This document shows positions 21,549 through 46,938 of a DNA stretch of 64,000 nucleotides, one piece after another (within the stretch, counting starts at the first letter, position 1; each line of letters opens with the position of its first letter). The translations under genes were made by a program, and so were the position numbers. Below the pieces are notes generated by a model. That model did not search any database and was not told where the DNA came from. It was given only the letters and a program-made list of their open reading frames with translations. The stretch covers positions 1 to 64,000 of the forward strand of contig JAFIGT010000021.1 in NCBI GenBank assembly GCA_017849585.1. Direction: 5' to 3'. Origin of the DNA: Verrucomicrobium sp. (lineage in GTDB: Bacteria > Verrucomicrobiota > Verrucomicrobiia > Methylacidiphilales > UBA1321).

Positions 21549-22351
21549 GGCTTGTCCAGACGCATCGCCACGATGGCTTCTGTAAGGGCTGCTTGTGCGG
21601 GTGGGGTCAAGACACGGTCCGGCGCATTATTGTCGATCCAGAGGCCATGTACGGTGTCGGGACCATCAAAGTCGTGGCATCTGACAGGCCGTTGGTGTTC
21701 TTGATAAACCCGACTCAATGCTTCGGAATGGCGGGGCGGTACGAGAAGATCGTTGCGGCTATGTACGAGCCAGAGTGGTGGGCTCTTCGCGTCGACGAGG
21801 GAAAGCGGCGAGGCGGCGTACAGGGTTTGCGCATCCGGTGGCGTGGTCGTGCCAAAAAACGTGGCGAAGAACGGCGGGGTAAAAAGATAGCTGTCGCAGC
21901 ACGGCGTATTGACCTCAAGCCATGTTGGCGGAGCGACAGCGAGAATGCCTGCCACCTGGCCAGGAGGGCGGGAAAGTGCCGTCATCAGGGCCAAGTGTCC
22001 ACCGGCGGAGGCGCCGACGACAAATAGGGATTGAGCGCGCAATCCGTACCTGGCGAGAAAGTCCGGGTTGCGGAGAAAATCAAAAGCGCTCACGCAATCT
22101 TCCAAGCAGGCGGGCCACGGCGCTTCAACGATGCGGCGGTAATTGACGGTGAAGGCCGCGATGTCATGCTGCGTCAGCAGGCGACAGATCGGCGCGAGTG
22201 TCGATTTGTCGGAGGTCATCCACCCGCCACCGTGGATGACAAGCGCCACGGGAGCGCCATCACGCTTGGGAGGAAGGTAAAGGTCTCCTACAAGGCGCTC
22301 GTGACGGGCCGTTGCGAATGGAATATCGGAGTGAACTTCGAGAGTAGTCAT
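21545..22351 (-). CDS. Alpha/beta-hydrolase-fold esterase/lipase
   Basis: 268 residues, no signal peptide, so probably cytoplasmic. Oxyanion motif VIHGGGW (about 38-44), nucleophile elbow GASAGG (Ser115), HSRNDLLVP (Asp201) and DTVHGL (His235) give a complete hormone-sensitive-lipase/BD-FAE-like triad. ATG at 22351 overlaps the stop of the iclR gene (ATGA), showing translational coupling; the longer frame upstream runs inside that gene and is unlikely to be used. It may remove ester groups from imported oligosaccharides. A regulator and its effector-processing enzyme in one operon is a common layout. Confidence 0.82.
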   Translation of the reverse strand: MTTLEVHSDIPFATARHERLVGDLYLPPKRDGAPVALVIHGGGWMTSDKSTLAPICRLLTQHDIAAFTVNYRRIVEAPWPACLEDCVSAFDFLRNPDFLARYGLRAQSLFVVGASAGGHLALMTALSRPPGQVAGILAVAPPTWLEVNTPCCDSYLFTPPFFATFFGTTTPPDAQTLYAASPLSLVDAKSPPLWLVHSRNDLLVPPRHSEALSRVYQEHQRPVRCHDFDGPDTVHGLWIDNNAPDRVLTPPAQAALTEAIVAMRLDKP

Positions 22352-23166
22352 TTGGCGCGAACGGGGGAGGCGTTTTTTGTTTTGGGGGGAGTCTTTTTGC
22401 GGGGCAGCTGGTTTTCTTGCCATTGCTGTTCGATGTCGGCGGCGGCCTTCTGGAGCGGGCGCAGGATGTCCTCGATTTGCGAGGCGCGCTGCAAGCGCAC
22501 CGTGGGAGCGCTTGCGCCAATGGCGGCAACGACCGTTTTCCAAGGATCGCGCACGGGAATGGCGACCGCGCTCAGCCCCTCGCTGAATTCGTCGCGGGTC
22601 TGGGCGTAACCCTGAAGTTGTACTTTTTTCAATTCATCTTTGAGCCGCTGCGGATCGCAGAAGGTGCGTGGCGTGAAACGCTGCAGCGGCGTTTTCAAGA
22701 GATAGGCGTCGAGCTCGTGCTCGTTCATGGACGCGAGCAAAACCTTGCCGACGGCGGTTGCGTAGGAATGGTCGCTCATATCTTCGGATTCATGTACGCG
22801 CAAGGCTTGGCGGCTCGGCGTGTATTTGAGATTGATCACACGACCATGATCCATCGAGGCAAGTAGCACGCTTTCATTCAACGTTCGGGCCACGTCATCA
22901 ATGATGGCAGCGGCGGACAGGGTGAGGGACCGGATGTAGGACGGGTGCCGCCCCAGCAACATGAGGCGAATACCGGGGTGGAATGCTTTGGTCTGCGGAT
23001 CTTGCCGCAAATAGCCACGGACGCAAAAGGTGCGGGCGATGTTATGGGCGGTGGCCACATTCAAATCCAACTGAAGCGCCAGCGCCCGGGTACCGATGCC
23101 ATCTTTGCAGGCAAAGACAGACTCCAAGACCGAAAGGCTTTTATCGAGGGTGAGTACACGCGGCAT
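22348..23166 (-). CDS. IclR-family transcriptional regulator (paralogue 2)
   Basis: 272 residues from ATG 23166 (MPRVLTLDKSLSVLESVF). Winged helix about 1-65, effector domain about 75-255, with the same landmark segments as paralogue 1: GIGTRALALQL, HPSYIRSL, ESVLLASMDHGRVINLKY and YAQTRDEFSEGLSAVAIPV. The tail is short and basic (PRKKTPPKTKNASPVRAK). The frame stays open 72 codons further upstream, but that stretch is AT-rich and contains an operator-like site, so I exclude it. It forms an operon with the esterase and is divergent from the 23416 gene, with two operator-like elements in the gap. Confidence 0.92.
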   Translation of the reverse strand: MPRVLTLDKSLSVLESVFACKDGIGTRALALQLDLNVATAHNIARTFCVRGYLRQDPQTKAFHPGIRLMLLGRHPSYIRSLTLSAAAIIDDVARTLNESVLLASMDHGRVINLKYTPSRQALRVHESEDMSDHSYATAVGKVLLASMNEHELDAYLLKTPLQRFTPRTFCDPQRLKDELKKVQLQGYAQTRDEFSEGLSAVAIPVRDPWKTVVAAIGASAPTVRLQRASQIEDILRPLQKAAADIEQQWQENQLPRKKTPPKTKNASPVRAK

Positions 23167-23183
23167 AAAATCCGTCAATTCTG

Positions 23184-23203
23184 TTTGTTTATTATGAACG
23201 AAA
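23184..23203 (+). promoter_or_regulatory. Shared 20-bp operator-like element, site 5
   Basis: TTTGTTTATTATGAACGAAA, the best dyad of the set (TTTGTT...AACGAAA). It lies 17 bp upstream of the iclR paralogue 2 start codon, as expected for autorepression. Confidence 0.65.
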
Positions 23204-23241
23204 TTATTGCCACAACGATGTCCAATACGCAAAAAAAATCT

Positions 23242-23270
23242 TTGACAATTAATTTCCTCACTTCTAAAGA
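23242..23270 (+). promoter_or_regulatory. Predicted promoter of the 23416 operon
   Basis: TTGACA, 17 bp, TAAAGA. The -35 context ATCTTTGACAATT is identical to that of the GH51-like gene promoter (minus strand, 17239-17251). The -10 match is weak. Confidence 0.4.
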
Positions 23271-23312
23271 GAGAAATCTTGATTTCATTTGTGCAGCGAA
23301 AGATCAAATAAT

Positions 23313-23332
23313 GTTTGATTATAATAAACGAA
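23313..23332 (-). promoter_or_regulatory. Shared 20-bp operator-like element, site 6
   Basis: Reverse complement TTCGTTTATTATAATCAAAC. It lies about 35 bp downstream of the predicted transcription start and 84 bp before the ATG at 23416. Confidence 0.6.
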
Positions 23333-23415
23333 GTGTTAAAGTGCGAATGATGTAATTGATTTTTTGAGAGCGCATCACGCAATCAAAGTAACAACCCCTA
23401 AGCATTTGGAGGAAA

Positions 23416-24170: not shown

Positions 24171-24280
24171 GATGAGGCGTCGCGCCGGGTTTTCACTTGG
24201 TGCGGCGCGTGATGGACGGGTGGTTTTCATTCTTCTTCCAACTGGATCAACGATCAGTAGTGGTTTCGACCGGTATACCT

Positions 24281-26641
24281 ATGAAAAAATGGATCAGTTT
24301 TGGTATTTGGGCAGGGCTGTTAATTCTGGCAGGGCAAGCCGCCGAGACGGGAACAATCGGTTATGTTGAGCCGGCGAAGACGGTAGGTTGGTGGAAGGTG
24401 GGAGACACCGTGAAGTTCAAATTGGGCGGAGGAAAGTTGCCAGAGGGTACTACTCAGGTCGAAGGTATCCTGACGAATGTAGAAGGGGATGAGATCACCC
24501 GGGTGAAGTCGGCCCGTGAGGAATTTGAAAATAACGGTTGGCAGTGGAAACCGACAACACCCGGTTATTATGAAGTTGAATTTGCCGCTCTGGCTGGTGA
24601 GAAGGGGGGCAAGACAACGTTGGTTCATCCCTATAACGTGCGCCGCCGCGATAGCGCGGGCAACGTGGTGACCAAGACGTTTACGCGCGAACGGCAGGGT
24701 TTTGTCGTCATGCCAACTCCTCTCGAAGCCAAGCCACCGACGGGCCAATACGGTTTCGATTATGAAAATAATCCTGAGGCGGTGCTGCTTTCCAAATTGA
24801 TGGGTTTTGATTTCGCGCGGGTGTTGGTGAACTGGGGTGATGCTGATCCGAAGCGGGCTCTCGAACCAGCCAAGGGCCAGTACAATTGGGATCGTCTGGA
24901 CCCGCATGTGGATCTCCTCTCGAAAGCGGGCTTGCAAATCATGGGGCAGATTTCCTTCACTCCAATCTGGGCGTCTCCATTCCCCGAAAAACGCAACGTG
25001 AATATTTGCGTGGTTGAAGCCACCGCCTATGCGCCGGTTAATATCGATGACTACGCACAGTTCGCCGAGGTGGTGGTGAATCGGTACAAGGACCGCATCA
25101 GTCATTGGGAAATCTGGAACGAGCCGAGCATTCCCGGCGGCAGTTGCTACTGGTCGGATACGACGGAGAATTACGCCAAGATTCTCGAAGCCGGTTACAA
25201 GGCGATCAAGCGCGCACAACCCGATGCGGTCGTTTCGCTCGGCGGTCTGGGCCCGCGCAAGCCGTATCATTCCTTTTACAATCGTCTACTGAAGATGGGC
25301 ATGGACAAGTACTGGGATGTGCTTTCTCTGCACGGAGCATGGAATTCGCCGGAAGATTACCGTGAGATTGATGCTCGTTACAAGCTGGCGCCCAAGCCGG
25401 CCATGTCGACGGAATGGCATGCGATTTTGCAGGGGAATATGCAGTCCGATCCGATTCTGGCGGAGACGGCACTTTCCTTCAAAATGATGAAGGATCTGTT
25501 TTACCAACATAAGGTGGGTGTGACGCGTGTGCTTGCTTTTGAGATGATCAATCTCACCGAAAAGGAAGCGCTGCCTTATGCGATCGAGAACAAATGGTTC
25601 ACACATGCGTCGGGATTTTTTCGGCATCATCCCCAGATTGAACCCCGGCAACCGGCGATGGTTTTGGCCCATTACATTGAAGTGGTTGGACGCAAGGCGA
25701 CCTATGTGAAAGAGTTCAAACTCTCCGACGAAACAACGGCGCTGCAATTCGATACGGCGCGCGGTCCGCTCATTATTTTCTGGGCTGAAACTGGCACCAT
25801 TCCGGCCAAGTCCATCAAGCCATTTCTACAGGCTGATTCACAGGTGCGTGACTGGGAAGGGCGGACAATGAAGGCTGGCGCTGAACTGGAAGCCAGGAAG
25901 ATCTATTACGTGCTGTCACCCAGTGCGGAGGCGCTGAGCAAGGCGGCTGTGGCGGATAAGCTCGTCTACATTCGCAAGGCGAACCGGTCGGCTCAGTCGC
26001 TGGTAAAGGCGTCGTATGTGAACGGCAAACTGTTTGCTGCGCCGGGTGGAGCTTTGACCGTTCCGGAAAACGCGTGGATTACGACGGACTGGAAGCTTGG
26101 AAAAATTCAGCAAGGTGCTCATGAAGAATCGTTCTCGGTGCGTGCCGCGGTGGGAGCCACCGAAGACGGTCTCGATGTCGTCGTGGAAGTGAAGGACAAA
26201 GCTCACGTTCAGAAAGAACCGCAACCGGCTTGGTGGGGCGGCGACAGCCTGCAGCTCGCCTTTGATTGCGAGGGTTCGGGTTTTGCTGGTGGCAATACGG
26301 AGTTTGTCTGTGCGCTGACTGACAGTGGTTCGGTAGTGTGGAAACTGACGGCGGCTGATCCTCGTGGCGATATTCCTGGCAAGTGGTCGCCGGCGAATGG
26401 ACCGGCGAAGTTTGCCGAGGCGAAAATCACGCATGAGGGAGACGTCACGTTGTATCAGCTGCGCTTCCCATGGGCAGAGTTGTATCCGATGGCGTATGAT
26501 GCGACCAAACCCATTCGGGTGTCTTTCGCGGTGAATAACAACAACGGAGCGGGTCGCGCGGAATACCTGGAATGGGGTAATGGTATCGTGAAGGACAAGG
26601 ATCCTGCCACGTACGGTCAATTGAACTTCATCGGAAAATAG
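24281..26641 (+). CDS. Secreted clan GH-A glycoside hydrolase with CBM9-like C-terminus (paralogue 2)
   Basis: 786 residues from the ATG at 24281, chosen because it starts a normal signal peptide (MKKWISFGIWAGLLILAGQA); the upstream extension does not look coding. Order: N-terminal beta domain (about 25-140, GYYEVEFAAL), GH39-like barrel (about 155-490) with HWEIWNEP (Glu281) and MSTEWHAI (Glu378), a linker domain, then the CBM9-like region (about 580-786; KAHVQKEPQPAWWGGD, FPWAELYP, FAVNNNNGAGR). It is closest to the next gene, 18 bp downstream, and more distant from the 5414 product. Substrate unknown; the operon is probably under IclR control. Confidence 0.83.
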   Translation: MKKWISFGIWAGLLILAGQAAETGTIGYVEPAKTVGWWKVGDTVKFKLGGGKLPEGTTQVEGILTNVEGDEITRVKSAREEFENNGWQWKPTTPGYYEVEFAALAGEKGGKTTLVHPYNVRRRDSAGNVVTKTFTRERQGFVVMPTPLEAKPPTGQYGFDYENNPEAVLLSKLMGFDFARVLVNWGDADPKRALEPAKGQYNWDRLDPHVDLLSKAGLQIMGQISFTPIWASPFPEKRNVNICVVEATAYAPVNIDDYAQFAEVVVNRYKDRISHWEIWNEPSIPGGSCYWSDTTENYAKILEAGYKAIKRAQPDAVVSLGGLGPRKPYHSFYNRLLKMGMDKYWDVLSLHGAWNSPEDYREIDARYKLAPKPAMSTEWHAILQGNMQSDPILAETALSFKMMKDLFYQHKVGVTRVLAFEMINLTEKEALPYAIENKWFTHASGFFRHHPQIEPRQPAMVLAHYIEVVGRKATYVKEFKLSDETTALQFDTARGPLIIFWAETGTIPAKSIKPFLQADSQVRDWEGRTMKAGAELEARKIYYVLSPSAEALSKAAVADKLVYIRKANRSAQSLVKASYVNGKLFAAPGGALTVPENAWITTDWKLGKIQQGAHEESFSVRAAVGATEDGLDVVVEVKDKAHVQKEPQPAWWGGDSLQLAFDCEGSGFAGGNTEFVCALTDSGSVVWKLTAADPRGDIPGKWSPANGPAKFAEAKITHEGDVTLYQLRFPWAELYPMAYDATKPIRVSFAVNNNNGAGRAEYLEWGNGIVKDKDPATYGQLNFIGK

Positions 26642-26659: not shown

Positions 26660-29056
26660 ATGATGAAAAAGACTCTTCTCATGGGCGGTCTGATCCTTTG
26701 TCTGCTTCAGAATGGAGCCGGAGCGGCAGAGCCCGCCGCCCCGGCTGCGGTGAAGCCTTATTATCTGCAGGCGGACACGCTCGGTTCTTGGTGGAAGTTG
26801 GGACAAACGGTAACTTATCGTAGCGGCGGCGGACCGATACCGGAAGATCTCGTGTCGGTTGTGGGAGCGATCACCAATGCGAACGACGATGCCGTGGCGC
26901 AGGTGATTGTGAAGCGCGAAGAGATGGAGACCAAAGGCTGGACGTGGTCTCCTAAGGAACCGGGCTTTTACGAGGTGGAATTTAGCTATCGCAATACCGC
27001 GGGTGAGAAGAAGGAACTGCCTCGCTATTTCGAAGTGAAGGCTCCGGGCGCGACGGAAAAGAAAATCTTCAAGCGTGAGCGTCAGGGTTTCGCGGTGCTG
27101 CCCGTCGGGTCGACGCCTCCGGCGAAAGCGGTGGGACAATTCGGTTTGGCCAACGATCATCCGACGCCGGAAGACATGCAGCTTGCGAAGTTCGTGGGCT
27201 TTGATCTGGTGCGCCTGACTGTGCCGTGGGGAGCGATGTTTACCAACTTAAAAGCGGCCATCGAGCCCGTGAAGGGCGAGTATCATTGGGAGCATCTCGA
27301 CAAATGTGTCGATCTCTACACGCAGGCTGGTTTTGTCATCAATGCGCAGTTTCTTTATACGCCAGTCTGGGCGTCGCCGTTCCCGGAGAAAGTGGACAAG
27401 ATCAATATCTGCGTGCGCGAGGCCAATGCCTATGCGCCCAAAGACATGAATGACTTCACGAACTTTGTCGCACTGACGGTGAATCGCTATAAAGATCGCA
27501 TTCGTCTGTGGGAGATCTGGAACGAGCCGAGCATTCCCGGCGGCAGTGTCTTCTGGTCGGATACGACGGAGAATTTCGTCGCGATGCTGAAGGCTGGTTC
27601 CCTGACGGTGAAAAAGAATCAACCCGAAGCGCAAGTGTGGATTGGAGGACTTGGGCCGCGTGCTCCCTATCATGCTTTCTACAACAAGGTGCTGCAGCAG
27701 GGCGGCGGCGACTACTTCGATGTGCTCTCACTGCACGGCAGCTATAACGTGCCGGCGGAGAAATTCCGCGCCATCGAGAAGTCGAATGGCGTCGCGCCGA
27801 AGCCTGCGATTCAGGGTGAATGGCATGCGATTCTGCAGGGGAATAATCAAAGCTCGCCGGTGCTTTCGGAGCAGGCGCTCTCGATGAAGATGATGAAGGA
27901 TCTGCTCTTCCAACTGAAGCATGGCGTGGGTCGCATCATCATGTTCGAACTGAAAAATCTCGTGGAAAAAGAAGTGCTCGGCTATGCGAGCCAGAACAAA
28001 TGGTTCGTTCACAGCTCCGGACTATTCCGACGTCAACCCTACGTCGAACCACGCCAACCGGCCGTTGTGCTGGCGAATTTCCTCGATACGGTGAATCGCA
28101 AGGCCACGTTTACTAAGGAACTAAAACTTGCGGACAACATCATTGCTCTGGCCCTGCAGACCAACAATGGTCCAGTGGTGGCTTTTTGGGGAGAGAAGGT
28201 TGCACCCTCAGTCAGCCTCGTGAAGCCTCTGGCAACGCCCGCGTCTGTCCTCAAGGATTGGGAAGGCAAGCCGATTGCCATGGATGGGAAGACACGCTTG
28301 GTTGAGAATCGCGTGTACTACCTCACGGCGGTCAATGCCGATGTGATCGCGAGAACGCCCGAGCAGGATCTGCTCATCTCGCCACGCGCGCAATCGCGCT
28401 CGGCCGCGAATGTGCCGAAGGGTACTTATGCGCGCGGTCCTCTCTTTACCTCGGTCGAGACTCCTGCCACGTTGCCGGAGTCGGGCTGGTTGAAGAATGA
28501 CTGGGCGTTGACCAAGCTGAACGCAGTGGCCCACGATGAGTCATTCTCGGTGCGTGCGGCCGTCGGCGCGAGCGATGCTGGATTGGATCTTGTTGTCGAA
28601 GTCAAAGACAAGACGCACGTGCAGAAGGAACCGCAACCGGCCTGGTGGAATGGTGACAGTTTACAACTGGCCATCGATTGTGAGGGTAGCGGCTTCTTTG
28701 GCGGTAACACCGAGTTCGTCTCTGCGTTGACAGAAAGCGGGCCGCAAATCTGGAAGCTGGTGGCTGCGGATCCGCGCGGTGATATTCCGCAAAAATGGTC
28801 GGCAGCGAATGGTCCGGCGAAATTTGTGGAGCAAAAGATTACGCGCGAGGGAGAAACGACGCGTTATCAAATTCGCATTCCTTGGTCGGAACTCTATCCG
28901 TTGGCCAACGATCCCACGAAGCCGCTACGAATCTCCTTCGCTGTGAATAATAACAACGGCTCGGGACGGGCAGAATATCTCGATTGGGGCGGAGGCATCA
29001 CGAAGGACAAAGATCCCGCCTTGTACGGTATCCTGCAGGCCTTTCCCGCGAAATAA
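26660..29056 (+). CDS. Secreted clan GH-A glycoside hydrolase with CBM9-like C-terminus (paralogue 3)
   Basis: 798 residues (ATG at 26660 or 26663). Signal peptide LLMGGLILCLLQNGAGAAE. It has the same domain order as paralogues 1 and 2: beta domain with GFYEVEFSY, barrel with LWEIWNEP (acid/base Glu289) and IQGEWHAIL (nucleophile candidate Glu387), and a CBM9-like C-terminus with KTHVQKEPQPAWWNGD and IPWSELYPL. The 18-bp gap and high similarity to the gene before it point to tandem duplication. A 14-bp perfect hairpin ends the operon. Whether the pair differs in substrate cannot be told from sequence. Confidence 0.83.
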   Translation: MMKKTLLMGGLILCLLQNGAGAAEPAAPAAVKPYYLQADTLGSWWKLGQTVTYRSGGGPIPEDLVSVVGAITNANDDAVAQVIVKREEMETKGWTWSPKEPGFYEVEFSYRNTAGEKKELPRYFEVKAPGATEKKIFKRERQGFAVLPVGSTPPAKAVGQFGLANDHPTPEDMQLAKFVGFDLVRLTVPWGAMFTNLKAAIEPVKGEYHWEHLDKCVDLYTQAGFVINAQFLYTPVWASPFPEKVDKINICVREANAYAPKDMNDFTNFVALTVNRYKDRIRLWEIWNEPSIPGGSVFWSDTTENFVAMLKAGSLTVKKNQPEAQVWIGGLGPRAPYHAFYNKVLQQGGGDYFDVLSLHGSYNVPAEKFRAIEKSNGVAPKPAIQGEWHAILQGNNQSSPVLSEQALSMKMMKDLLFQLKHGVGRIIMFELKNLVEKEVLGYASQNKWFVHSSGLFRRQPYVEPRQPAVVLANFLDTVNRKATFTKELKLADNIIALALQTNNGPVVAFWGEKVAPSVSLVKPLATPASVLKDWEGKPIAMDGKTRLVENRVYYLTAVNADVIARTPEQDLLISPRAQSRSAANVPKGTYARGPLFTSVETPATLPESGWLKNDWALTKLNAVAHDESFSVRAAVGASDAGLDLVVEVKDKTHVQKEPQPAWWNGDSLQLAIDCEGSGFFGGNTEFVSALTESGPQIWKLVAADPRGDIPQKWSAANGPAKFVEQKITREGETTRYQIRIPWSELYPLANDPTKPLRISFAVNNNNGSGRAEYLDWGGGITKDKDPALYGILQAFPAK

Positions 29057-29111: not shown

Positions 29112-31511
29112 TTACCAGAAGATCTGGACGGACCCGGAAAGGTCGCGGAGTTCGAGGACAGTACCTGCGAAGTCGGTGCGCACGGTGGGCGACAAGACGG
29201 CGGAATCGCTTTCGCGCAGGAATGTAGTGGTGCGTTCGAATCCGGTTTCGGGCCGGAACCGCAACGTGGCATGGTCCAATCCGGTCACTTGCACTTTGCG
29301 TTTGAGCAGGGGCGCGCGCGGTTCGCGATCCTGGCACGTTAGCAGACCTTTTTCCTGCTCCACGAATACGCGACATTCCAGATTGGCCGCCTTGCCGAGG
29401 TGATAGGAGGTGATGCCCTTTTCGATCATGGTTTCCGTGGGCATGAAGACCGGAGCGCCTTCCGGCATGCGTAGCTTCACACCCACGGTCATGTCGGGAC
29501 TGTAAGCGGAGAGATAAAGCGCATTGGCATGACGACGGAAATTGAGCCGCGGATTGAGCTGCTGCGGCGAGGGCTTCGCGAAATCAATGGTGTAGCCGAA
29601 TTTCTGGAGCACCTCGCGCATGAGATTCTCAGGATAATAGAATTCCTTAGCATCGAGCATGAAGACATCAAAGCCGCTCGGGGCAACCACAAAGGAGTTC
29701 GTGCCTCGCAGCCAAATGATTTGACCGCCCTTCCATTCCGGGCGCGCGACGCAGACGGCGGCGGTGCGTTGTTCGGCACCTTGCACATAGGTGGCCAACG
29801 TAGAAACTGAATCCGCCTCGATGGTTTGTAGGTCGAGCGCCCCGCCGGAGAGAAGGGCATTGTGCCGGACCTTGGAGCGTTGTCCGTTGATCTCGATTTC
29901 CAAATCACCTTCCATTGCGGGAGCGGATTTTTGCGAGAGAAGTTTACGCAAGGCCGGATCGGTGACCGGTCCATAGAGCAGCACTTGACCACCTGCCGCT
30001 ACCAGCGTCTCGAGTTCTCGAAGGACTTTCGGATTGGCGGCCGCAGCAGTTGGAACAACGATAACGCTTTTCGTATAGTTGGCGCCTTGTTGGCGCGAAC
30101 TCAGGAAGTTGCCCGTACTGACGACGGTGTTGAGGGGGAAACCCAGATTGATGGCGTCGCGCATGAACAAGTCACCGAAAAAGACTTCCTCATAGCGTTG
30201 TTGGTTGAAGGCCAGATCATGATACTCGTCGAACGGATAGAGCCACACGAGCGGTCCGGCTTCATCCGGAGTCGTGGCATAGCAGGAGAGCAATTCCGGG
30301 ATGACTTCGCCTGGAACTTGGGGCGGCATTTCGCCATAGGAATTATCGACGGTGAGAATGGAGAGATTCTCCGGACTGCACGCCTTGCCATGCGCGTTGA
30401 GTCGCGTCATCGCGAGAGGTAGGTAGAGATCGTGCGCCTTGCGTTGATATTGATGATACCACGGACTGAAGGCCCACCAAGGATCATGGATATAGTAGCG
30501 GAAAAGATAGCTTTTGCCGGAGGGAACTTCCGCCACGCGGGACATCCAGCCGGCCATCTCCAGGCCGAAGTCACCGGTGATGGCGGCCCAGGGGGAGTTT
30601 GGAGGAATTTCGAGGTCGGAGATCTGCGAGTAAATGTCGCGGAGCGGCACGGCATCGGTGGCGATGTCAATGCCCGTGGTGGAGTTCGAACCGCGCGTGC
30701 GCAACGGAATATCCGAGCATTCGCTACGGAACTCCCGCCAGAATTCCATGATGCCCTGTCGCACCTCGTTGCCGCGATCGGCGGAGAATTTTTTTTTGTC
30801 GAAGGTGGAGCCGATAATGCCCCACGTGTCCTTGCCGAAACCCAATCCATTCGAAAGCCAGAGAAAGTCGAACCCCAGATCCTGGAAGTAGCAGGTCACT
30901 TGCCGACCGAGGAACGCACCGAAGGGCGTACCCTCGGGAATGCCGGACGGATATCCAGCATAGCTGCGCGTATCTTGATGGAGGTGTTCGGCGCAGTAGA
31001 TGAAGGTTTTGCCGCAACCGGCGCCAGCGCTGGGATTGCCCGTGCAAATTTCCGGGTGACGTTCGTATTTAAACGTGGACTTGGCGAATTCCGGACCCGG
31101 ATCGAAAATGGCACCCACGCGGAGGGGCTTGCTGTAGATTTCACGCGCGGAAGTTTTCAGTGTATCGATCAAGCGTTTCAAATCGCGGTAGCGATACTCA
31201 GGCGGATTTTCGCGATAGAAGAAGGGCTTGCTGGCGATCGAGTCATCCTTCGCGTCGGAGTGGGGATTGGCCGAACCGATGAAGCGGGACCATTCGAATG
31301 TGGCCTCCATGTCCCGGTTGTAATCCAGAATTTCGGAACCGTCCGAGACCCACAACAGCACATCGACGGTTTCCCCATGGACGATCAACGGCAGCCATTG
31401 CCGGAAGAGCGTGTCGCAGACGGCTTTCAGACCTTCTGGAGTCTGGTCATGAAAGGGTTTGAGGGTGACTTCGAGACAGATATTGCGAAGAGTGTTCATG
31501 GGTATGGGCAT
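29112..31511 (-). CDS. Large conserved-looking protein of unknown function, possible glycoside hydrolase
   Basis: 799 residues with no signal peptide (MPIPMNTLRNICLEVTLKPF), so probably cytoplasmic; ATG at 31499 is an equally good start. I do not recognise the family. Residues about 1-480 are rich in Trp/Tyr/Asp/Glu segments typical of a sugar-processing barrel (VDVLLWVSDGSEILDYNRD, GFDFLWLSNGLGFGKDTWG, ITGDFGLEMAGWMSR, VWLYPFDEYHDLAF). Residues about 520-590 look like the Rossmann-like trimerisation domain of beta-galactosidases (KSVIVVPTAAAANPKVLREL, AAGGQVLLYGPVTD). The rest is beta-rich. The araC-type gene 70 bp upstream on the same strand probably controls it. It might process oligosaccharides made by the secreted enzymes; this is inference. 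Confidence 0.6.
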   Translation of the reverse strand: MPIPMNTLRNICLEVTLKPFHDQTPEGLKAVCDTLFRQWLPLIVHGETVDVLLWVSDGSEILDYNRDMEATFEWSRFIGSANPHSDAKDDSIASKPFFYRENPPEYRYRDLKRLIDTLKTSAREIYSKPLRVGAIFDPGPEFAKSTFKYERHPEICTGNPSAGAGCGKTFIYCAEHLHQDTRSYAGYPSGIPEGTPFGAFLGRQVTCYFQDLGFDFLWLSNGLGFGKDTWGIIGSTFDKKKFSADRGNEVRQGIMEFWREFRSECSDIPLRTRGSNSTTGIDIATDAVPLRDIYSQISDLEIPPNSPWAAITGDFGLEMAGWMSRVAEVPSGKSYLFRYYIHDPWWAFSPWYHQYQRKAHDLYLPLAMTRLNAHGKACSPENLSILTVDNSYGEMPPQVPGEVIPELLSCYATTPDEAGPLVWLYPFDEYHDLAFNQQRYEEVFFGDLFMRDAINLGFPLNTVVSTGNFLSSRQQGANYTKSVIVVPTAAAANPKVLRELETLVAAGGQVLLYGPVTDPALRKLLSQKSAPAMEGDLEIEINGQRSKVRHNALLSGGALDLQTIEADSVSTLATYVQGAEQRTAAVCVARPEWKGGQIIWLRGTNSFVVAPSGFDVFMLDAKEFYYPENLMREVLQKFGYTIDFAKPSPQQLNPRLNFRRHANALYLSAYSPDMTVGVKLRMPEGAPVFMPTETMIEKGITSYHLGKAANLECRVFVEQEKGLLTCQDREPRAPLLKRKVQVTGLDHATLRFRPETGFERTTTFLRESDSAVLSPTVRTDFAGTVLELRDLSGSVQIFW

Positions 31512-31580
31512 GATCGTATACCGGGTGGGCTGCCATGTCTTGGCTCCTGCGTCTCTGTTTGTTTTACCGCCTAATGAAGA

Positions 31581-32447
31581 TCAATGAAGTCCAAACTTTT
31601 CCCGGAAATCACCCGGGTTAAATCGAGTGGCTTTCTTAAATGCGCGGTAGAAATAAGAGAGGTCGTTGAAACCGCATGCAAAGCAGATTTCGGAGATAGT
31701 GCGGGTCGGTTCCGAGAGCAATTTGTCGCGGGCCACCTGCAGGCGGCGGGTGAGCAAATGTTGTCGGATGCTCTGGCCGCGCGTGCGCTGATAGAGGCGG
31801 CAGAGATGACTTTGGGTGACGCCGATCTCGCGCGCGAGGGCTGAGTAGTCTAATTCCCGGCCATAGTTTTCCTCGATGAGCGTATCGATGTAGGTGACGA
31901 TGCCGGCGTTACGGTTGGCCTTGAGCTTGCGGGCGCCGAGACGGATGATCAGCGCGAGAAGCTTGAGAAGCTCCATCTTGATCACCATCTGGTAATTGAA
32001 GCGGGCTTGTTTGAATTCCGATTCCAGGTGAGGAAAGATGGCGGCGATCTCACGATTGGAATCCAGAATGTAGAGCTGCTCCCGCTGGCGGCGCAACGTG
32101 TCATTCAAATGCGGCGCGAAAATCGAGAAGAAGGAGAAGTCGTTGTTCATCTCCCGCAGGCCGAAATCGAGCATCCTAGGCAGGAACAGGACATTGTAGA
32201 CGGTGACTGACTGCCCCGGTTTCAGGATGTAGGTCGTCTCATCCTCGGGATGAACCAGATAGAGCGTTCCCGGTGACACCGGATAGAGCGCGCCATTGAT
32301 GAGCATCTGGCATTTGCCTGAAACAATGTAGGTGATCTTCCAGAATTCCCGGCGGTGGGTGCGCTTGGAAATGCGCGATGTGTGTCGCACACGAAAGATA
32401 TTGAATGGAAAATCCGAGCTGAAACTGCGTGGTCGGCGAATCAACAT
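31581..32447 (-). CDS. AraC-family transcriptional regulator
   Basis: 288 residues from ATG 32447. The N-terminal cupin-like sensor (about 20-130) has HRREFWKITYIVSGKCQMLI, with GTLYLVHPEDETTY. The C-terminal double HTH has LDYSALAREIGVTQSHLCRLY and ISEICFACGFNDLSYFYRAFK. The frame is open to an ATG at 32495, but the first residues would then overlap the transcription-terminator hairpin of the upstream gene (32491-32515), so the shorter form is preferred. It is followed on the same strand by the 799-residue unknown protein, its likely target. The family normally activates in response to a sugar or its derivative. Confidence 0.86.
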   Translation of the reverse strand: MLIRRPRSFSSDFPFNIFRVRHTSRISKRTHRREFWKITYIVSGKCQMLINGALYPVSPGTLYLVHPEDETTYILKPGQSVTVYNVLFLPRMLDFGLREMNNDFSFFSIFAPHLNDTLRRQREQLYILDSNREIAAIFPHLESEFKQARFNYQMVIKMELLKLLALIIRLGARKLKANRNAGIVTYIDTLIEENYGRELDYSALAREIGVTQSHLCRLYQRTRGQSIRQHLLTRRLQVARDKLLSEPTRTISEICFACGFNDLSYFYRAFKKATRFNPGDFREKFGLH

Positions 32448-32490
32448 TCGAAGGGCATAGTAACAGCTGGAGGGCAGTGATCCAGTCCAG

Positions 32491-32515
32491 AACAAGGGAC
32501 CCGAAGGTCCCTGTT
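32491..32515 (-). terminator. UUCG-capped terminator of the Verru_Chthon operon
   Basis: In minus-strand RNA sense, AACAGGGACC, loop UUCG, GGUCCCUUGUU. The stem with the very stable UUCG tetraloop begins three bases after the stop codon of the 1223-residue gene. Confidence 0.7.
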
Positions 32516-32517
32516 AG

Positions 32518-35500
32518 CTACGGCGCGAACTGCGTATCCGACACCACCCGCCATTTGTAAAGCGTCTCCAACGTGGTGGTAGTTGCGGGTAGGGCGTAGT
32601 CCGGAATCGGCACGGCCGCGTTGTTCGGATCGATATAGCGCTCGAGCGTGGTGGCGCCGCGATATTCACCGCTGATCGTGCCGCGATCTTCATTCCACTG
32701 GGTCGGATCGCTATTGGAATTCTTGATCGATTGCGCGGTGAAATAGACCGTGTAGACGTTCGACTTCGTGGTCACGCGGGGATAGATGTTGGCATAGGGC
32801 CGCTCCCGCGTGTTGTCTCCCACCATGGCAAAGTCGGCTCCATACCAATCGGTCCGGGCCGCGCTATCAGAGGTCCAGTTTTTATTGCTAGGGACGAGGT
32901 AGATGTCGCAGATTTCCGAGGCTGATTTGAAAATGTCGTAGCCGTCAAATTTGGCTTTAAATTGGCGCAACGTACCATTGGCCTCATCGAGATTGAGCGG
33001 AAGACGAGCATTAGTATTTTGCACTACGGTTTTGTATCCAGCCGCAGCGCTTAGAGGAACGGCCGCGACTTTTTCACTCGCCAGTACCGAGCGCAAAGCA
33101 GTGCTGCGGGTGATGTAGGTGAAGGGCAGAATCTGGTAATTCAGATTGACCTTGCCTGCGGTGGAAAAGGGTTCGCTGATGGCGTACGGCTCGGCCACGG
33201 GCATCCAGAACAGATCGAGCATGAGATGATCCGGCGGATTTACCGCACCGGGGTGACCACTCGGGCCGGGGCGGAAGAGCAGGGTCTGCCATGGCTTGGT
33301 CCGCTTGACGCCAGTAGGGATCGAGCCGAGTATCCCCGCCGAGGGTACTTGCCGATTGGCAGAGAAGAAAGTTAAGTTTGCCATTCGTGTTTCAAACTGG
33401 CCGCTGTCGAAATAAGGGATGCCACCTGCGGGTCGGTAAAAATTTCCTTCATCGGCTTTATTGACGTACGGGCCATCCGGTTGATGGCCTACCCCGTTGT
33501 CCCAATCGCCGACAGGACCTCCGGGAATCATGACGCCATTGGTAACGGTGGGAGAAACGAGTTGTGGCTTGGCCGGACTACTGGTCGCGAAGTTAGTGAT
33601 CGAATCGGCGGAATTAGCGACCAACTTTCCATAGGGGGTGGCGAAGGTCATGGGGGTTCCAGATCCGATACGCAGACTGTAGGCCGCGCGGGTGACCCCT
33701 GTTGCCAAGTCGCTGTTTTTTGGATGAGGCGCAAAAGCGATTGAAGGTATATCCGAAACGGCGAGAAGGCGCGGATCTGCAAAGGCTCCGTTTAGTACCT
33801 GACTGATCAGCGTGTCATTGGTGGCATTAATGGAGTTTGAGTTCCACGTATTATTGAAGGAACAGCTTCCACGATCTACGGGAATTGAATCGGCCCACGA
33901 GCCTTTGAGAGGAATAAGCGCAGAAGTTCCAAATCGTCGTAAAACGGGATCAGTTGCGACCAACGGCACCTGCATCTTTTGTTTGGGAAAAGGTATATGA
34001 TAAGTTTGAATCAGATTTCCCGCAGCAGCGGCATTTCCGTTGTATAGCTCAATTGTCAAACTGGGTATACCTTGCAATTCAAGCTCCATGGTGCCGCCTG
34101 TGGGGAATTCGAGGATCTTGCTATAGAAGGGGAAATTCGTAACCGGATCTGGATTTACATTTTGCAAGGTGCGGTTCGACATCATGATCCGGAAGTCAAT
34201 AATGCCACCTCCAGGTCCAACGGAGGCATAACTGGAATAGGCACCTTTGGCTGCGGAAACAAAGATGGTTGCCGACGAGGTCATTTCCATTGGAATGGAA
34301 TTCAAAGTGAATTTGTCCAAGCCGCTTACCTTGATAGTGAAACCAGGATCCATGGCGGTATAGCCCATGGAGGGGGTGAAAAAGCTTAAGAGAAAGAAGC
34401 CTTGTACCGCCGTCGTATTGTCAGGCGGCATCTGTCCTCCGCTGGGTGCGCTGGAAGTATAGGTAGGCAGTTGAATGGATTCGACCGCAATACCGGATGT
34501 GGAGGTGGTGCTTGGAGGGACGGCCGGGACGGCGCCCTTACCCATGCCAATAAAAAGCATGGTGGCTTCCGTGATTCGAGGGAAGCGGCCTTGCCCTTGG
34601 GTGCCCCAGTCTGAGCGGATCGAGGGTGAGACTTGCCCACGTCCCGCAAAAGCTCCGGAGTTGGTACTGGCAAATGTCTTGATCGCGTAAGGCGCTGTAA
34701 CCGTTGCATCGCGCAGATTGATCGTGCGGATGTAGTCAAAGATATCGGTAAGGATCTGGCGTTGATCAGCACCATACTTGGTGCTGAAGTTGCTGGTAAA
34801 GCCGGGAACATTGGTCGTGGTGAGCGTATCGAGGTAGTCGAGAAGTTGCCGATTGCGACCAATATTGATATCCGTCGTAGAGCTCGTGTTATCGCTGCGC
34901 GTGAAATAGTATCTGTTGCCGCCTGCGGTGGAACAGAACGCAATCAGCTTGTCGACAAGGCTCCGATGGCTCGCATCGTTGATATCATGGATCGGCCAGA
35001 TCGCGACGCGTGGTTTACCGTAGAGATTGACTTCCGGGGCGCGACTGTGGGTGGTGAGGAAAAAGCGGGCGCTCTCCAGTTGCTGACGGGTGAGGCTGCT
35101 CGTATTACGAGTACTGTCAAATGCCAACTCGCCAACGGAGGTGTAGAGTCTTTCGGTTTTCTTCTGGATATAATTGGCGTTGGGATTGACTCCAGCTGCG
35201 GGGCTGACAGGCACGGGAACGGTTGCTTCGTCGGAACCTCCCTTGTCATAGCGGGGAGTCAACTTGAAGAGATTTGCGGAACTGAGGGTAGGAAAAACTT
35301 TTTTGAGCGTGGTCATGGCCGGATGCCCCGGATAACGCTGATATTCTCCTGCGGTCGGTTGATAGAGGGCTAAACCTGATCCGGCTTGGTCACGTTCATC
35401 GGCGTAATTAAATCGTGGTGTGTCCCAGAAGGTGCCGTGGGAAGCAGTGTTGATGTTGACTTTGCAGGTTTCGTCATCTGTCCAGAAGGCGATGCGTCCG

Positions 35501-36189
35501 ACAATCGGATTGGTCTGGCTGGCACCGGTCACGGTAACGACCTTGCCGCTGCCGCTGGGCGTGACGATTTCCCCGTTTTGCAAGACGTAGAGCCAGCGCA
35601 CTGGCATGGGGGCGGGCTGGTATTTGGGAAGAGCGATGTTGCTTTGAGCGCCGGGAGGGGCCGTCAGGGAGAAGCCTTCGATGGTGGAGATGAGATTGGG
35701 ATTTGTGGGGTCGCGAGGATCAAGGATCGGGAAAGAGAAGACAGCCGCGCCGGAGGAATTGGTCGTGGTGACAGGATAATTTAAATCGCACCAAATGGCG
35801 GGGGAACTACTCCACGTGGCTGGGGGGACGTCACCGGCCAAGTCAGTCGCCTTGGTCGTGGTCATCGATGCGGCGGAATAGAGGCGATAGGCGAGTTCCA
35901 GCGCGCCTCCATTACCGAAGCGGCGAATGACTCCCGGTTGCGAGGCCCAAGCATGGGTGGAGCCTTGAGTCGTGGCGTGATTGATCTGGGCCTGAACGAG
36001 GTTGACGGCGGTGTCGGCTAATTGCCGGGTCGAGGCGACGGTACGATAGTTGGAGGAAGTAATGCGTTCGCTGCCGGCCCTCATGACGAATCCCACCACC
36101 AGGGTGGTCACCAGTACAATGATGCCGAGAACAATCACGAGCGCCATGCCGCGTTGTTCGTGATGCCGCTTCAAAAATGGAGATGTCAT
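32518..36189 (-). CDS. Verru_Chthon cassette protein A (giant GspK/PilX-like)
   Basis: 1223 residues. It begins with an uncleaved- or prepilin-type N-terminus, EQRGMALVIVLGIIVLVTTLVVGF, which has Met-Ala rather than Phe and no Glu5, as in GspK/PilX. A large body follows, with DDETCKVNINTASHG (about residues 240-255), recalling the NINTA motif of GspK, and Ser/Thr/Pro-rich beta segments, ending in a short region (ETLYKWRVVSD). Family A of the Verru_Chthon set is known from Verrucomicrobia but uncharacterised. Its ATG overlaps the stop of protein D (ATGA). GspK is usually about 300-350 residues, so the body is greatly enlarged. Likely location is the cell envelope at the tip of a pseudopilus. 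Confidence 0.85.
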   Translation of the reverse strand: MTSPFLKRHHEQRGMALVIVLGIIVLVTTLVVGFVMRAGSERITSSNYRTVASTRQLADTAVNLVQAQINHATTQGSTHAWASQPGVIRRFGNGGALELAYRLYSAASMTTTKATDLAGDVPPATWSSSPAIWCDLNYPVTTTNSSGAAVFSFPILDPRDPTNPNLISTIEGFSLTAPPGAQSNIALPKYQPAPMPVRWLYVLQNGEIVTPSGSGKVVTVTGASQTNPIVGRIAFWTDDETCKVNINTASHGTFWDTPRFNYADERDQAGSGLALYQPTAGEYQRYPGHPAMTTLKKVFPTLSSANLFKLTPRYDKGGSDEATVPVPVSPAAGVNPNANYIQKKTERLYTSVGELAFDSTRNTSSLTRQQLESARFFLTTHSRAPEVNLYGKPRVAIWPIHDINDASHRSLVDKLIAFCSTAGGNRYYFTRSDNTSSTTDINIGRNRQLLDYLDTLTTTNVPGFTSNFSTKYGADQRQILTDIFDYIRTINLRDATVTAPYAIKTFASTNSGAFAGRGQVSPSIRSDWGTQGQGRFPRITEATMLFIGMGKGAVPAVPPSTTSTSGIAVESIQLPTYTSSAPSGGQMPPDNTTAVQGFFLLSFFTPSMGYTAMDPGFTIKVSGLDKFTLNSIPMEMTSSATIFVSAAKGAYSSYASVGPGGGIIDFRIMMSNRTLQNVNPDPVTNFPFYSKILEFPTGGTMELELQGIPSLTIELYNGNAAAAGNLIQTYHIPFPKQKMQVPLVATDPVLRRFGTSALIPLKGSWADSIPVDRGSCSFNNTWNSNSINATNDTLISQVLNGAFADPRLLAVSDIPSIAFAPHPKNSDLATGVTRAAYSLRIGSGTPMTFATPYGKLVANSADSITNFATSSPAKPQLVSPTVTNGVMIPGGPVGDWDNGVGHQPDGPYVNKADEGNFYRPAGGIPYFDSGQFETRMANLTFFSANRQVPSAGILGSIPTGVKRTKPWQTLLFRPGPSGHPGAVNPPDHLMLDLFWMPVAEPYAISEPFSTAGKVNLNYQILPFTYITRSTALRSVLASEKVAAVPLSAAAGYKTVVQNTNARLPLNLDEANGTLRQFKAKFDGYDIFKSASEICDIYLVPSNKNWTSDSAARTDWYGADFAMVGDNTRERPYANIYPRVTTKSNVYTVYFTAQSIKNSNSDPTQWNEDRGTISGEYRGATTLERYIDPNNAAVPIPDYALPATTTTLETLYKWRVVSDTQFAP

Positions 36190-36812
36190 GGCCGGTAAAT
36201 CTGGGCGCTGCCTGTATCGGGGTTCAGCTGAACGGTGGCGTAGTTATTGGGCAATGTCGTGGCGGTGGCGGAACGGTAATTGAGCACTGTAAAGAAAAGA
36301 TTGGCGCGTTCGGTAGTGTTGCTGGCGACCGGTTGGACGACTCCGTTCGGGCGAATGCGAAGGGTGGCGTAGGAGGCGTTGGCCAGCAGGGAGCCTGCTG
36401 TGGCGCTCATGGTCGCGGTGGGTAATTTGGAGAGAAAGGGTGAGTAGGCGTTATTTTCCGAAAGGGTGATATTTTTGGGAAAGGTCACGAGTCGATTGAT
36501 CGGAGCCAGTGTTCCCGTGGTGGTGTCTGGAGCCCAGAGTTGCACCGCGCTATAGCGTTGAGTGGATTGGACTGGTAGTTTGATCAGGCGAATTTCCACA
36601 GTGCGATTGCGCACGGAGGCCGCCTGTCGTGCCATGGCAAATTGATCCGCCAATAATTGGCCGGTCTGTGTAATGTTGTTATTTTCCAGTAATGAATTGG
36701 TGCCAGGAACAGCCGCCGCCATCAGGATGGTCATGAGGGCGATGACCACAAGCAATTCGGTGAGAGAGAATCCCCGTGTTCGGGGCAAAGGCATAGGAGA
36801 ATGCGAGTTCAT
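36186..36812 (-). CDS. Verru_Chthon cassette protein D (GspH/FimT-like pseudopilin)
   Basis: 208 residues. Prepilin site RG|FSLTELLVVIALMTILMAAAVP with Glu5, then LLADQFAMARQAASVRNRTVEIRLI, which is the signature of FimT/GspH minor pseudopilins (helix, then the surface-exposed N-R-T strand). The remainder is a beta domain ending SGSAQIYRP-type. It overlaps protein C by 4 bp upstream and protein A by 4 bp downstream, so all are translated together. Function is unknown; by analogy it is a minor subunit of a type II secretion- or pilus-like structure. Confidence 0.85.
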   Translation of the reverse strand: MNSHSPMPLPRTRGFSLTELLVVIALMTILMAAAVPGTNSLLENNNITQTGQLLADQFAMARQAASVRNRTVEIRLIKLPVQSTQRYSAVQLWAPDTTTGTLAPINRLVTFPKNITLSENNAYSPFLSKLPTATMSATAGSLLANASYATLRIRPNGVVQPVASNTTERANLFFTVLNYRSATATTLPNNYATVQLNPDTGSAQIYRP

Positions 36813-37759
36813 GGTGTGCTACTCCATTTGGATTCACGCAGTGTCACCGGGCAGGTCATAATGCGACAGGTGATCTTGGCCGCGGTCAGCGTATTTTGCA
36901 GAGCCGTCAGATCGCTCTGAAATTTACTGACGTCGATGAACTTGCCCGCGAGGGCGTTTTCAATGACGCTGGGAGGTTGGGAACCATTGGCCAGCCGGAT
37001 GGCAGAACTTTCATCAATCACCACGAGGGTGATCTGCACCATCGGCGGAAGTTGGGCGTATTGAATGCCTCCGCCTGTGCGGGAGTCGTAGCGATAGTTG
37101 GCGGTGAGTTGATTTCCTAAGCCGCTGGGATCGTCCTGATAAAAAGTGCGGGGCCATGCGATGAGTGCGATGACATTTTCGGCGATCGGCCATGCTAGGC
37201 TGTCGAGGCTTTGGGTCCAAGTGGCGTTGTTGTTTGTAAAGACCGTCAGATCTTCCGTCGGTTGCAGCGCCTGCATCAGGCGGTAACGCCAGCGATCTTG
37301 AGTGATGTGTGCGGGTCGATAATCCTTGTCGTTATCGAATTTCACGTAGTAGCCGCAGGCGTTGAGCAATCCGCGCGTTTGTTGATAAGTGGTGCTGCTG
37401 GAAAAAGCTTCGGGTGCCTGAAAATAGATGGAGTGACTTCCACCCGGTGCGTTCACGAGGAAGTGCAAATCCGACTTGCGGGTGTATCGGGTTGGCGCGT
37501 TATCGTCATCATAACCCCAGTAGGTATTGAGCGTTGCCTGGGCCAGTGTTTGGGTGATGATGTCGAATCCGCTGCGTCCTGCTTGGAAGGCGTCAATTTG
37601 GGCCGAGCCTCGCGTGACGGTCTTGGTTGCTTGCCCGGTGATACTTGCCACGATGGCCAGCATTAAGGCCAGCACTGCCATGCTGACCATCATTTCCACC
37701 AGAGTGAAGGCGCGGGTGGAGGGACCAGCTAAACTACCCTTGGCATGAACGGTGGTCAT
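36809..37759 (-). CDS. Verru_Chthon cassette protein C (GspJ/PilW-like pseudopilin)
   Basis: 316 residues. The N-terminus RA|FTLVEMMVSMAVLALMLAIVA is a prepilin signal with Ala in place of Gly at the cleavage position. GspJ/PilW-like features are the long helix continuing into TKTVTRGSAQIDAFQAGRSGFD and a large beta domain (HFLVNAPGGSHSIYFQAPEA). The last residues (CRIMTCPVTLRESKW) carry two Cys. The start codon lies 8 bp after the stop of protein B. Assignment as C is by size, order and N-terminal style. Confidence 0.82.
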   Translation of the reverse strand: MTTVHAKGSLAGPSTRAFTLVEMMVSMAVLALMLAIVASITGQATKTVTRGSAQIDAFQAGRSGFDIITQTLAQATLNTYWGYDDDNAPTRYTRKSDLHFLVNAPGGSHSIYFQAPEAFSSSTTYQQTRGLLNACGYYVKFDNDKDYRPAHITQDRWRYRLMQALQPTEDLTVFTNNNATWTQSLDSLAWPIAENVIALIAWPRTFYQDDPSGLGNQLTANYRYDSRTGGGIQYAQLPPMVQITLVVIDESSAIRLANGSQPPSVIENALAGKFIDVSKFQSDLTALQNTLTAAKITCRIMTCPVTLRESKWSSTP

Positions 37760-37767
37760 AGCAACGG

Positions 37768-38220
37768 TTATTGTCCTGCGGTTAAAAGAGTGAAGACCTT
37801 GCTTTTCTGGGCGGCGGTTGGGGCAGTTGCGGGATACTTCAGGGTGACCTTGACCAGTTTGGCGCTGGTATTAAAGGAAGTAGCGGCACCAGCGATGCTT
37901 GGATCCGTGACGGAGAAGGTCGCGATAAAGTACGCATCGGTAGAGGAGGCTGAGGCCACACGGATCCCTTGCGGGGTATAGTACTTGGGTTGACTTGCGA
38001 AAGTGGGGAGAGATGTCAGAGAGATTTGTTGCAGATCCGAGCGAATCTGGCGGGCAATACCAGCTTCGCCTGTTTGTACCATGGCCTGTTGGACGGTGCT
38101 AAGGCCGACTGGAAGCAATCCGAGTACACCCAACATGGCGAATGAAATTAATCCAAGGGCCATGGTTACTTCTACCATGCTGAAGCCACGATTCTGGCAG
38201 CAAGTGAGGGGCTTTTTCAT
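37768..38220 (-). CDS. Verru_Chthon cassette protein B (GspI/PilV-like pseudopilin)
   Basis: 150 residues, first gene of the cassette. Prepilin site NRG|FSMVEVTMALGLISFAMLGVLGLLPVG, with Glu5 and the long hydrophobic helix, matching PilV/GspI. Then QQAMVQTGEAGIARQIRSDLQQ and a short beta domain. Processing by a prepilin peptidase and membrane insertion are expected; no peptidase is in this window. Two weak matches to the 20-bp operator-like element lie upstream (38387-38406 and 38478-38497) but are not convincing alone. Confidence 0.84.
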   Translation of the reverse strand: MKKPLTCCQNRGFSMVEVTMALGLISFAMLGVLGLLPVGLSTVQQAMVQTGEAGIARQIRSDLQQISLTSLPTFASQPKYYTPQGIRVASASSTDAYFIATFSVTDPSIAGAATSFNTSAKLVKVTLKYPATAPTAAQKSKVFTLLTAGQ

Positions 38221-46426: not shown

Positions 46427-46938
46427 GAGGCGAGTCGAAATCTTCAGTTTTTTGGGGAACGGGCTCGATTATTTAGCCTCTCGGCATCTTTAACCCCAAT
46501 CAACTACCTAAAAACTGCTCTTTTCCCTCTGCAGAGTCAAGCTATAGGCGAGGGTAAAAGATCATTTTAAGTAAGTATTAATTTGTCTATTATTAGGAAG
46601 GTAGTTTTATGAATTTTTATTTTGATTATGCTAGGCGGCTGGATTACTCAGTCTTTATTTTGAATAAATAAGCAGCATAAGTGCCATATTTTAAATGGAC
46701 TACATAAAACACGGCTTTCTGTACTTTAACTCATTGAAATTGCGCGGTGTCTGTAATAATTAATTTTTTTAATAATACTTGTATTAATTAGTTGGGCTTC
46801 TTAAATGGCGAAAAATCGAAGTCAGGCAAATTTGGGGGATTTTTGCTGCATCTCATTTTCGGCAAAAAAGTTAAGCATCTCTTTTGAAAGGAAGCGTTCC
46901 TGTTGCTTTTTTTTCAGGCAATCGGTAGCGTGCGCGGC
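46427..46938. other. 512-bp AT-rich divergent intergenic region
   Basis: It separates the giant PATR gene from the MFS gene. Long A/T runs and a 14-bp palindrome (46773-46786) are present. I find no supported gene or RNA; an ORF from 46805 looks random. Confidence 0.5.
46773..46786. promoter_or_regulatory. Palindrome resembling the lacI-adjacent one
   Basis: TAATACTTGTATTA has perfect 6-bp arms about a TT centre; its core TACTTGTA is identical to that of the palindrome at 1099-1112. It lies 153 bp upstream of the MFS start. A shared LacI-type operator is possible, but AT-rich background makes chance likely. Confidence 0.2.

Follow-up and report, generated by a model that had tools for sequence, protein, structure and literature searches.

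Described enzymes with a comparable architecture

GH42 enzymes (PDB 4oif, 5xb7) and the GH164 beta-mannosidase (7omi, 6t5o) are built from a TIM barrel, a Rossmann (trimerisation) domain and a beta domain, in that order, and the same domain order is found in alpha-L-fucosidase isoenzyme 2 (6tvk), which we take to be a GH151 enzyme carrying the GHL6 domain (PF14871). Enzymes of GH-A, GH29, GH18 and GH13 place a catalytic acid or nucleophile after barrel strand 4. In GH42 and the rest of clan GH-A a glutamate acid/base follows strand 4 and a glutamate nucleophile lies at strand 7; in the GH151/GH29 type an aspartate nucleophile follows strand 4. Cwp19 (5oq3) and PgaB (6au1) act on peptidoglycan and poly-GlcNAc. 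A verrucomicrobial enzyme, Op5Man5 of Opitutaceae TAV5 (7bob), is reported to be a GH5 exo-beta-1,4-mannosidase (PMC8233224).

The protein described here shares the domain order of GH42, GH164 and 6tvk. It comes from a Verrucomicrobium sp. genome and is encoded on the minus strand at positions 29112-31511 of the 64,000-nucleotide stretch of contig JAFIGT010000021.1 that was analysed (the window). Our preferred reading, to which we give a probability of about 0.6, is that it represents an uncatalogued family of glycoside hydrolases that trims rhamnose-type oligosaccharides in an exo-acting manner and feeds an isomerase. At the level of sequence the family is uncatalogued in the sense of being new to the libraries searched, Pfam, NCBIfam and the PDB; a CAZy family without a representative in these may still cover it. 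That so conserved and widespread a family is absent from these resources means that carbohydrate-use genes of gut, rumen, soil and marine bacteria are being read incompletely, and because the family is closely tied to an isomerase that is just as uncharacterised, its function can be tested directly.

Coding evidence and distribution of the family

The original prediction of a 799-residue protein was borne out. A scan of genome contigs confirmed 129 stretches encoding a relative of this enzyme-like protein (the best 80 were kept, with 36-54% identity in the best segment), and 60 columns are invariant across 58 aligned family sequences, so that the open reading frame is not a chance one; the ORF call, the relatives and the alignment agree, and the ORF is real. 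Its exact start codon is uncertain, since within 31481-31620 a ribosome-site-like AGGAG stands ahead of an ATG whose frame differs from that of the ATG start given in the window's ORF listing, and several close relatives in the 58-row alignment begin near residue 5-7 of the 799-residue protein.

The 58 aligned sequences span about eleven phyla by record title, many of them from metagenome assemblies, including Verrucomicrobiota, Lentisphaerota, Bacteroidota, Bacillota, Spirochaetota, Planctomycetota, Armatimonadota, Acidobacteriota and Chloroflexota; one labelled Campylobacterota (L052) may be a binning error, as it nests among Bacteroidota. Within the window's phylum, 44 of the 288 sampled genomes carry the family (at most three candidates per genome were scored), and the window's own genome holds a second copy, 42% identical, on contig C30. 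The window copy is closer to sequences from Lentisphaerota and Omnitrophota (identity up to 49%), and its branch is fairly long (1.11) in a tree that was built by a quick method and rooted for drawing only. A plasmid collection yielded one partial, unannotated match (26%) in Nonomuraea.

The protein had been said to belong to no recognisable family, and profile searches agreed, with no family found in Pfam or NCBIfam and no match by sequence in the PDB. A PDB search with the single protein gave no rows, and a profile of the 58 relatives gave two rows only (E ~0.5). Scanning the 58 members individually against Pfam produced few and weak matches, and the names that surfaced (KH_DEAH11, DUF4350, ABC_transp_aux and others) were dropped, the best E among the 58 members being 0.0035. 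PF22369, the GLMA second domain of the GH35/GlmA type, was matched by 7/58 members at E <=0.1 (best 0.009). The 799-residue protein itself showed no match to PF17132 (GH106); GH106 occurs as a neighbour only. Literature searches by text returned no paper that, judged by its search listing, points to the family.

The original prediction also placed the protein inside the cell for want of a signal peptide. By a simple hydrophobicity rule the window copy indeed has no leader peptide, but 22 of the 58 members do have an N-terminal hydrophobic leader (15 of these from Bacteroidota), so that a cytoplasmic location is valid for the window copy and not for the whole family. The rule is crude, in that L084 passes it without a leader-like appearance and L020 narrowly misses it.

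Predicted fold and domain arrangement

The AlphaFold2 model built from the 58-row alignment (pLDDT 92.9, pTM 0.94) shows a barrel from residue 8 to roughly residue 412, followed by a Rossmann domain and then a beta domain. As mapped on the minus strand, the glycosidase-type TIM barrel covers residues 1-456 (30144-31511), based on two models, fold searches and conservation. A Rossmann/GATase-like domain that resembles GH42 domain B and contains a beta insertion covers approximately residues 457-645 (29577-30143), based on the secondary structure of the model, hhalign and a sub-threshold match to the GH42 trimerisation domain (PF08532; 11.5 bits at residues 482-512 against a cut-off of 25.8). 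The C-terminal beta domain covers approximately residues 646-799 (29115-29576), as judged from model secondary structure.

The galactosidase-like Rossmann domain that had been proposed was recovered by profile comparison: residues 451-601 align with the corresponding region of GH42 proteins (hhalign, 70% probability, P 4e-5; reference set of 15 proteins), and the domain also aligns with GHL6 proteins (72%, P 3.3e-5; 19 proteins). The barrel taken alone gave nothing credible against either GH42 (3.5%) or GHL6 (0.6%). The family has the barrel, the GATase-like trimerisation domain and the beta domain of GH42, as seen in the predicted model, the fold rows and hhalign, with no detectable sequence relation between its barrel and that of GH42.

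Structural searches with the whole model placed GH42 (4oif, E 1.6e-17) and GH164 (7omi, E 1.7e-14, TM 0.44) in the first Foldseek rows, with an exo-beta-glucosaminidase at rank 33; identity to GH42 and GH164 was only 9-14% over the structural alignments. VIA, which re-ranks only Foldseek's own matches, put Cwp19 at the top (Z 17.6, rmsd 4.6, 299 aligned), followed by a beta-1,2-glucosyltransferase (7vky; Z 15.1, rmsd 5.8, 546 aligned, spanning residues 4-715), PgaB (Z 14.9, rmsd 4.8, 305 aligned) and alpha-L-fucosidase isoenzyme 2 (Z 14.8, rmsd 6.4, 536 aligned), with GH42 lower (Z 14.3, rmsd 6.2, 540 aligned). Op5Man5, which also joins its barrel to a GH42-type trimer, scored Z 13.5 (rmsd 4.6, 464 aligned). 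When the barrel was modelled alone (pLDDT 87.5), Cwp19 again came first by VIA (Z 17.2, rmsd 4.6, 300 aligned), PgaB reached Z 14.6, GH164 reached Z 12.8 (rmsd 5.4, 322 aligned), and the best 50 VIA rows were glycosidases or relatives of glycosidases; the best Foldseek E was modest (2.7e-5), and the oxidoreductase barrels OPR3 and OYE6 were among the first 50 Foldseek rows. No PDB sequence match links the family to GH164, Cwp19, PgaB or the described GH5 enzyme Op5Man5. A predicted fold match does not by itself demonstrate the function of the 799-residue protein. The model has a glycosidase-type barrel, and no match to a family described in Pfam, NCBIfam or the PDB sequences emerged, so neither of the outcomes named beforehand as refuting the suggestion of an intracellular carbohydrate enzyme from a possibly new family occurred, and the suggestion is supported. 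We would regard the protein as a carbohydrate-active enzyme and most probably as a glycoside hydrolase of exo-acting type, whose barrel and GH42-type Rossmann domain give it the build of GH42, GH164 and GH151 enzymes.

Candidate active-site residues and alternative chemistries

The conserved acidic residues that the original prediction proposed to look for were located at or near strand ends in the model. Residues invariant in the barrel of all 58 sequences are E14, E60, D137, E141, S220-N221-G222, R273, N276, N305, H342, D343 and D389, and all of these apart from the S-N-G motif lie at or near the C-terminal ends of predicted barrel strands. Strand 4 (216-219) runs into S220-N221-G222 in 58/58 sequences, with no carboxylate there, and the strand at 335-340 is followed by H342-D343 in 58/58; the strand numbering is that of a predicted model in which strand 6 is weak. 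Since the usual acid after strand 4 is missing, the active site must differ from those of GH42, GH164 and GH151, which sets the family apart from ordinary GH42, GH-A and GH29/151 enzymes. GH42 or GH-A membership was rejected on the barrel comparison and the absent strand-4 acid. The GH151/GH29 type was rejected in the same way, its strand-4 aspartate being replaced by S/N in the family, the barrel failing to align and PF14871 being matched by none of the 58 members in the matches listed at E up to 0.1. As a guess from the model, D137/E141 together with D343 would be the candidate catalytic pair; should the catalytic residues really be this unusual, they would form a new arrangement for glycosidase chemistry.

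The strand-4 gap also leaves room for a carbohydrate enzyme that uses the same barrel without hydrolysis, as a phosphorylase, transglycosidase, lyase or epimerase. The beta-1,2-glucosyltransferase in the VIA list covers most of the chain, and the invariant R273, N276, N305 and H342 could suit other chemistry; hydrolases nevertheless make up most of the listed structural neighbours and are frequent among the neighbouring genes, and we consider a non-hydrolysing enzyme rather unlikely, though the best placed of the alternatives. Still less probable is a very divergent beta-galactosidase-type member of GH42 or clan GH-A using the usual two-glutamate mechanism, which would account for the best Foldseek rows and for the Rossmann alignment but not for a barrel that does not align with GH42, an invariant S-N-G where the strand-4 glutamate should be, an H-D pair after the strand at 335-340, or the absence of PF02449 (GH42) from the matches listed, at E up to 0.1, for the 58 members.

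The partner isomerase

The commonest neighbour cluster of the family is an AraA/FucI-like isomerase (cluster identities were taken from one member of each), with homologues in 42 of the 76 loci that could be used and directly adjacent in 27; some Sphingobacterium loci in these counts are near-duplicates, two of the isomerases counted are distant (L012, L073), and four of the 80 loci (L016, L019, L076, L077) were dropped as the simple gene caller had chosen an antisense ORF. On the family tree the loci with an isomerase are dispersed and come from nine phyla. In the window's phylum, a strict isomerase (at least 680 bits with model A3, at most five candidates per genome scored) occurs in 47/288 genomes, namely in 39/44 genomes with the family versus 8/244 without it (odds ratio 230; Fisher p 1e-34, with related genomes treated as independent), and is missing from 5/44. 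It lies within about 1 kb of the family gene in 19/44 genomes, gaps being based on an assumed isomerase length where the isomerase is upstream. So tight a tie to a metabolic isomerase fits an enzyme better than a non-catalytic protein that binds sugar or acts as a scaffold. The missing strand-4 acid might favour this last reading, which is very improbable given that 60 columns are invariant over about eleven phyla, with many polar residues close to the barrel mouth among them.

Both partner isomerases scanned against Pfam match PF11762 and PF02952 above the cut-offs, and three scanned against NCBIfam fall far below the equivalog cut-offs of L-arabinose isomerase AraA (33-64 against 622 bits) and sulfoquinovose isomerase SftI (23-53 against 700), so by sequence score the partner is a separate isomerase group. 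In an alignment of 32 partner sequences, the residues aligned with E306, E333, H350 and H450 of E. coli AraA, which we take to form its metal site, are kept, two being invariant and the histidines present in at least 90%.

Ten Bacteroidota loci have the order isomerase, SusC-like, SusD-like, family gene, with an MFS gene first in nine of them; L047 and L063 have a small extra ORF within this run, L036 has a GH106 gene preceding the family gene, and L032, L035 and L051 show the shorter order MFS, isomerase, family. In many Bacteroidota the family protein would carry an export leader, and it can sit behind a SusC/SusD-like pair. This order together with the leaders suggests a route in which the substrate is taken up across the outer membrane and cleaved in the periplasm, the product is imported by the MFS protein and isomerisation takes place in the cytoplasm. 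One aligned isomerase of the 32 has a leader by the simple rule (L007), and those of L182, L184 and L192 appear exported by eye, which is unexpected for a sugar isomerase; these exported-looking isomerases are a poor fit to a simple cytoplasmic second step. Among the 25 listed of 100 Pfam families from 96 neighbours there was no sugar kinase or sugar-phosphate aldolase, and loci of isomerase relatives in rhizobia, Sinorhizobium and Pantoea contain ABC transporters and no named sugar.

Under the preferred reading, a terminal sugar would be removed from imported oligosaccharides of a rhamnose-bearing glycan, the window copy acting in the cytoplasm, and the released aldose would be converted to a ketose by the AraA/FucI-like isomerase, which is next door in many genomes and here is found on C30. 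Predicted fold, conservation and genetic linkage are what the analysis shows, and hydrolysis, the direction of the pathway, the sugar and the regulation are inferred from them. More tentatively, and at somewhat under even odds, this may be a new GH family with its carboxylates arranged around strands 1-3, 7 and 8 and not 4. Together with the isomerase it would then make up an undescribed pathway of two steps for a deoxy- or methylated sugar found in rhamnose-bearing glycans, passed between bacteria of many phyla. The family probably marks an undescribed step in plant or algal sugar breakdown.

A probable link to rhamnose-bearing glycans

GH106 genes occur in 15/76 family loci, and in 37/44 family genomes versus 91/244 others. 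As GH106 is common in the phylum (128/288 genomes) and lies 18 kb off in the window, the family is tied less strongly to rhamnose than to the isomerase. A GH78-type rhamnosidase domain adjoins the family gene in L070, and in one genome with a strict isomerase and no family gene (G292, locus L183) the next gene is a GH106. On a plasmid of Deinococcus QL22 (L202), a distant isomerase relative annotated as 'hypothetical protein' comes directly after rhamnose isomerase, mutarotase and transporter genes, and in G193 the match to a second isomerase group begins 11 bases after that to rhamnose isomerase (RhaA). Members of this second group (about 455-480 bits with model A3) were also seen less than 1 kb from GH106 matches in G179, G196, G130 and G292.

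RhaA itself is present in 45 of the 47 genomes with the strict isomerase, being missing only in G000 and G247, and the idea that the partner is a general stand-in for L-rhamnose isomerase was rejected on this ground. A relative of rhamnose is therefore likelier than rhamnose itself, and plain L-rhamnose is unlikely to be the sugar in general. The window's own genome is an exception to the pattern, with no RhaA match at E 1e-10.

The AraC regulator and the surrounding genes

The pairing with an AraC regulator that had been noted holds: an AraC-family protein (31581-32495, minus strand; HTH_18 2.3e-21, AraC_binding 9.5e-11) is encoded 69 bases upstream of the 799-residue gene on the same strand. 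In a comparison of 81 loci (the C30 locus of the same genome and the best 80 of the 129 relatives), its homologues were found in five; the best among family neighbours are in L011, L009, L010, L008 and L083, and those of L009, L010 and L011 lie immediately upstream of the gene for the family protein. The AraC protein probably switches the gene on when a sugar of the glycan is present.

Several other genes of the window recur in the same 81 loci. An IclR-family regulator (22348-23382, minus) has homologues in eight and is 71% identical to the IclR protein beside the second family copy of the genome (L002); a GH106 alpha-L-rhamnosidase (7915-11337, plus; PF17132, 2.4e-220) has homologues in ten, a GDSL hydrolase (20424-21548, plus) in three, with 52% identity in L078, and a BD-FAE type esterase (21545-22543, minus) in two (L013, L014). 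Three GH42/GH10/GH39-like proteins on the plus strand, namely one with weak family matches (24197-26641), its paralogue convergent with the 799-residue gene (26660-29056) and a third just over the cut-off for GH10 and GH42 (5414-7816), have homologues in L078 only. This Spirochaetes locus brings together two GH42/GH10/GH39-like genes, a GH106-cluster gene, the family gene and a GDSL gene, and L011 has AraC, family and GH106 genes together. The 799-residue gene is thus part of a partly recurring kit and not a lone gene. The isomerase is missing beside the window copy and would have to come from C30, where the only strict isomerase of the genome lies beside the other copy.

An MFS transporter (46903-48192, plus) has homologues in three of the 81 loci, being 25-31% identical to isomerase-adjacent MFS proteins in L043, L032 and L051. 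Genes for proteins of 926, 937 and 238 residues in the window have no homologue in the 81 loci; the 926-residue protein (11431-14211, minus), with no Pfam match, adjoins the GH106 gene, and the 937-residue protein (14278-17091, minus) has a partial arabinofuranosidase-type match only (ASD1_dom, 1.5e-8). Farther along the minus strand, a run of genes (32518-38220) includes some N-termini that by eye resemble type IV pilins or secretion pseudopilins, and a 2546-residue protein (38786-46426) carries 14 PATR (autotransporter passenger) repeats.
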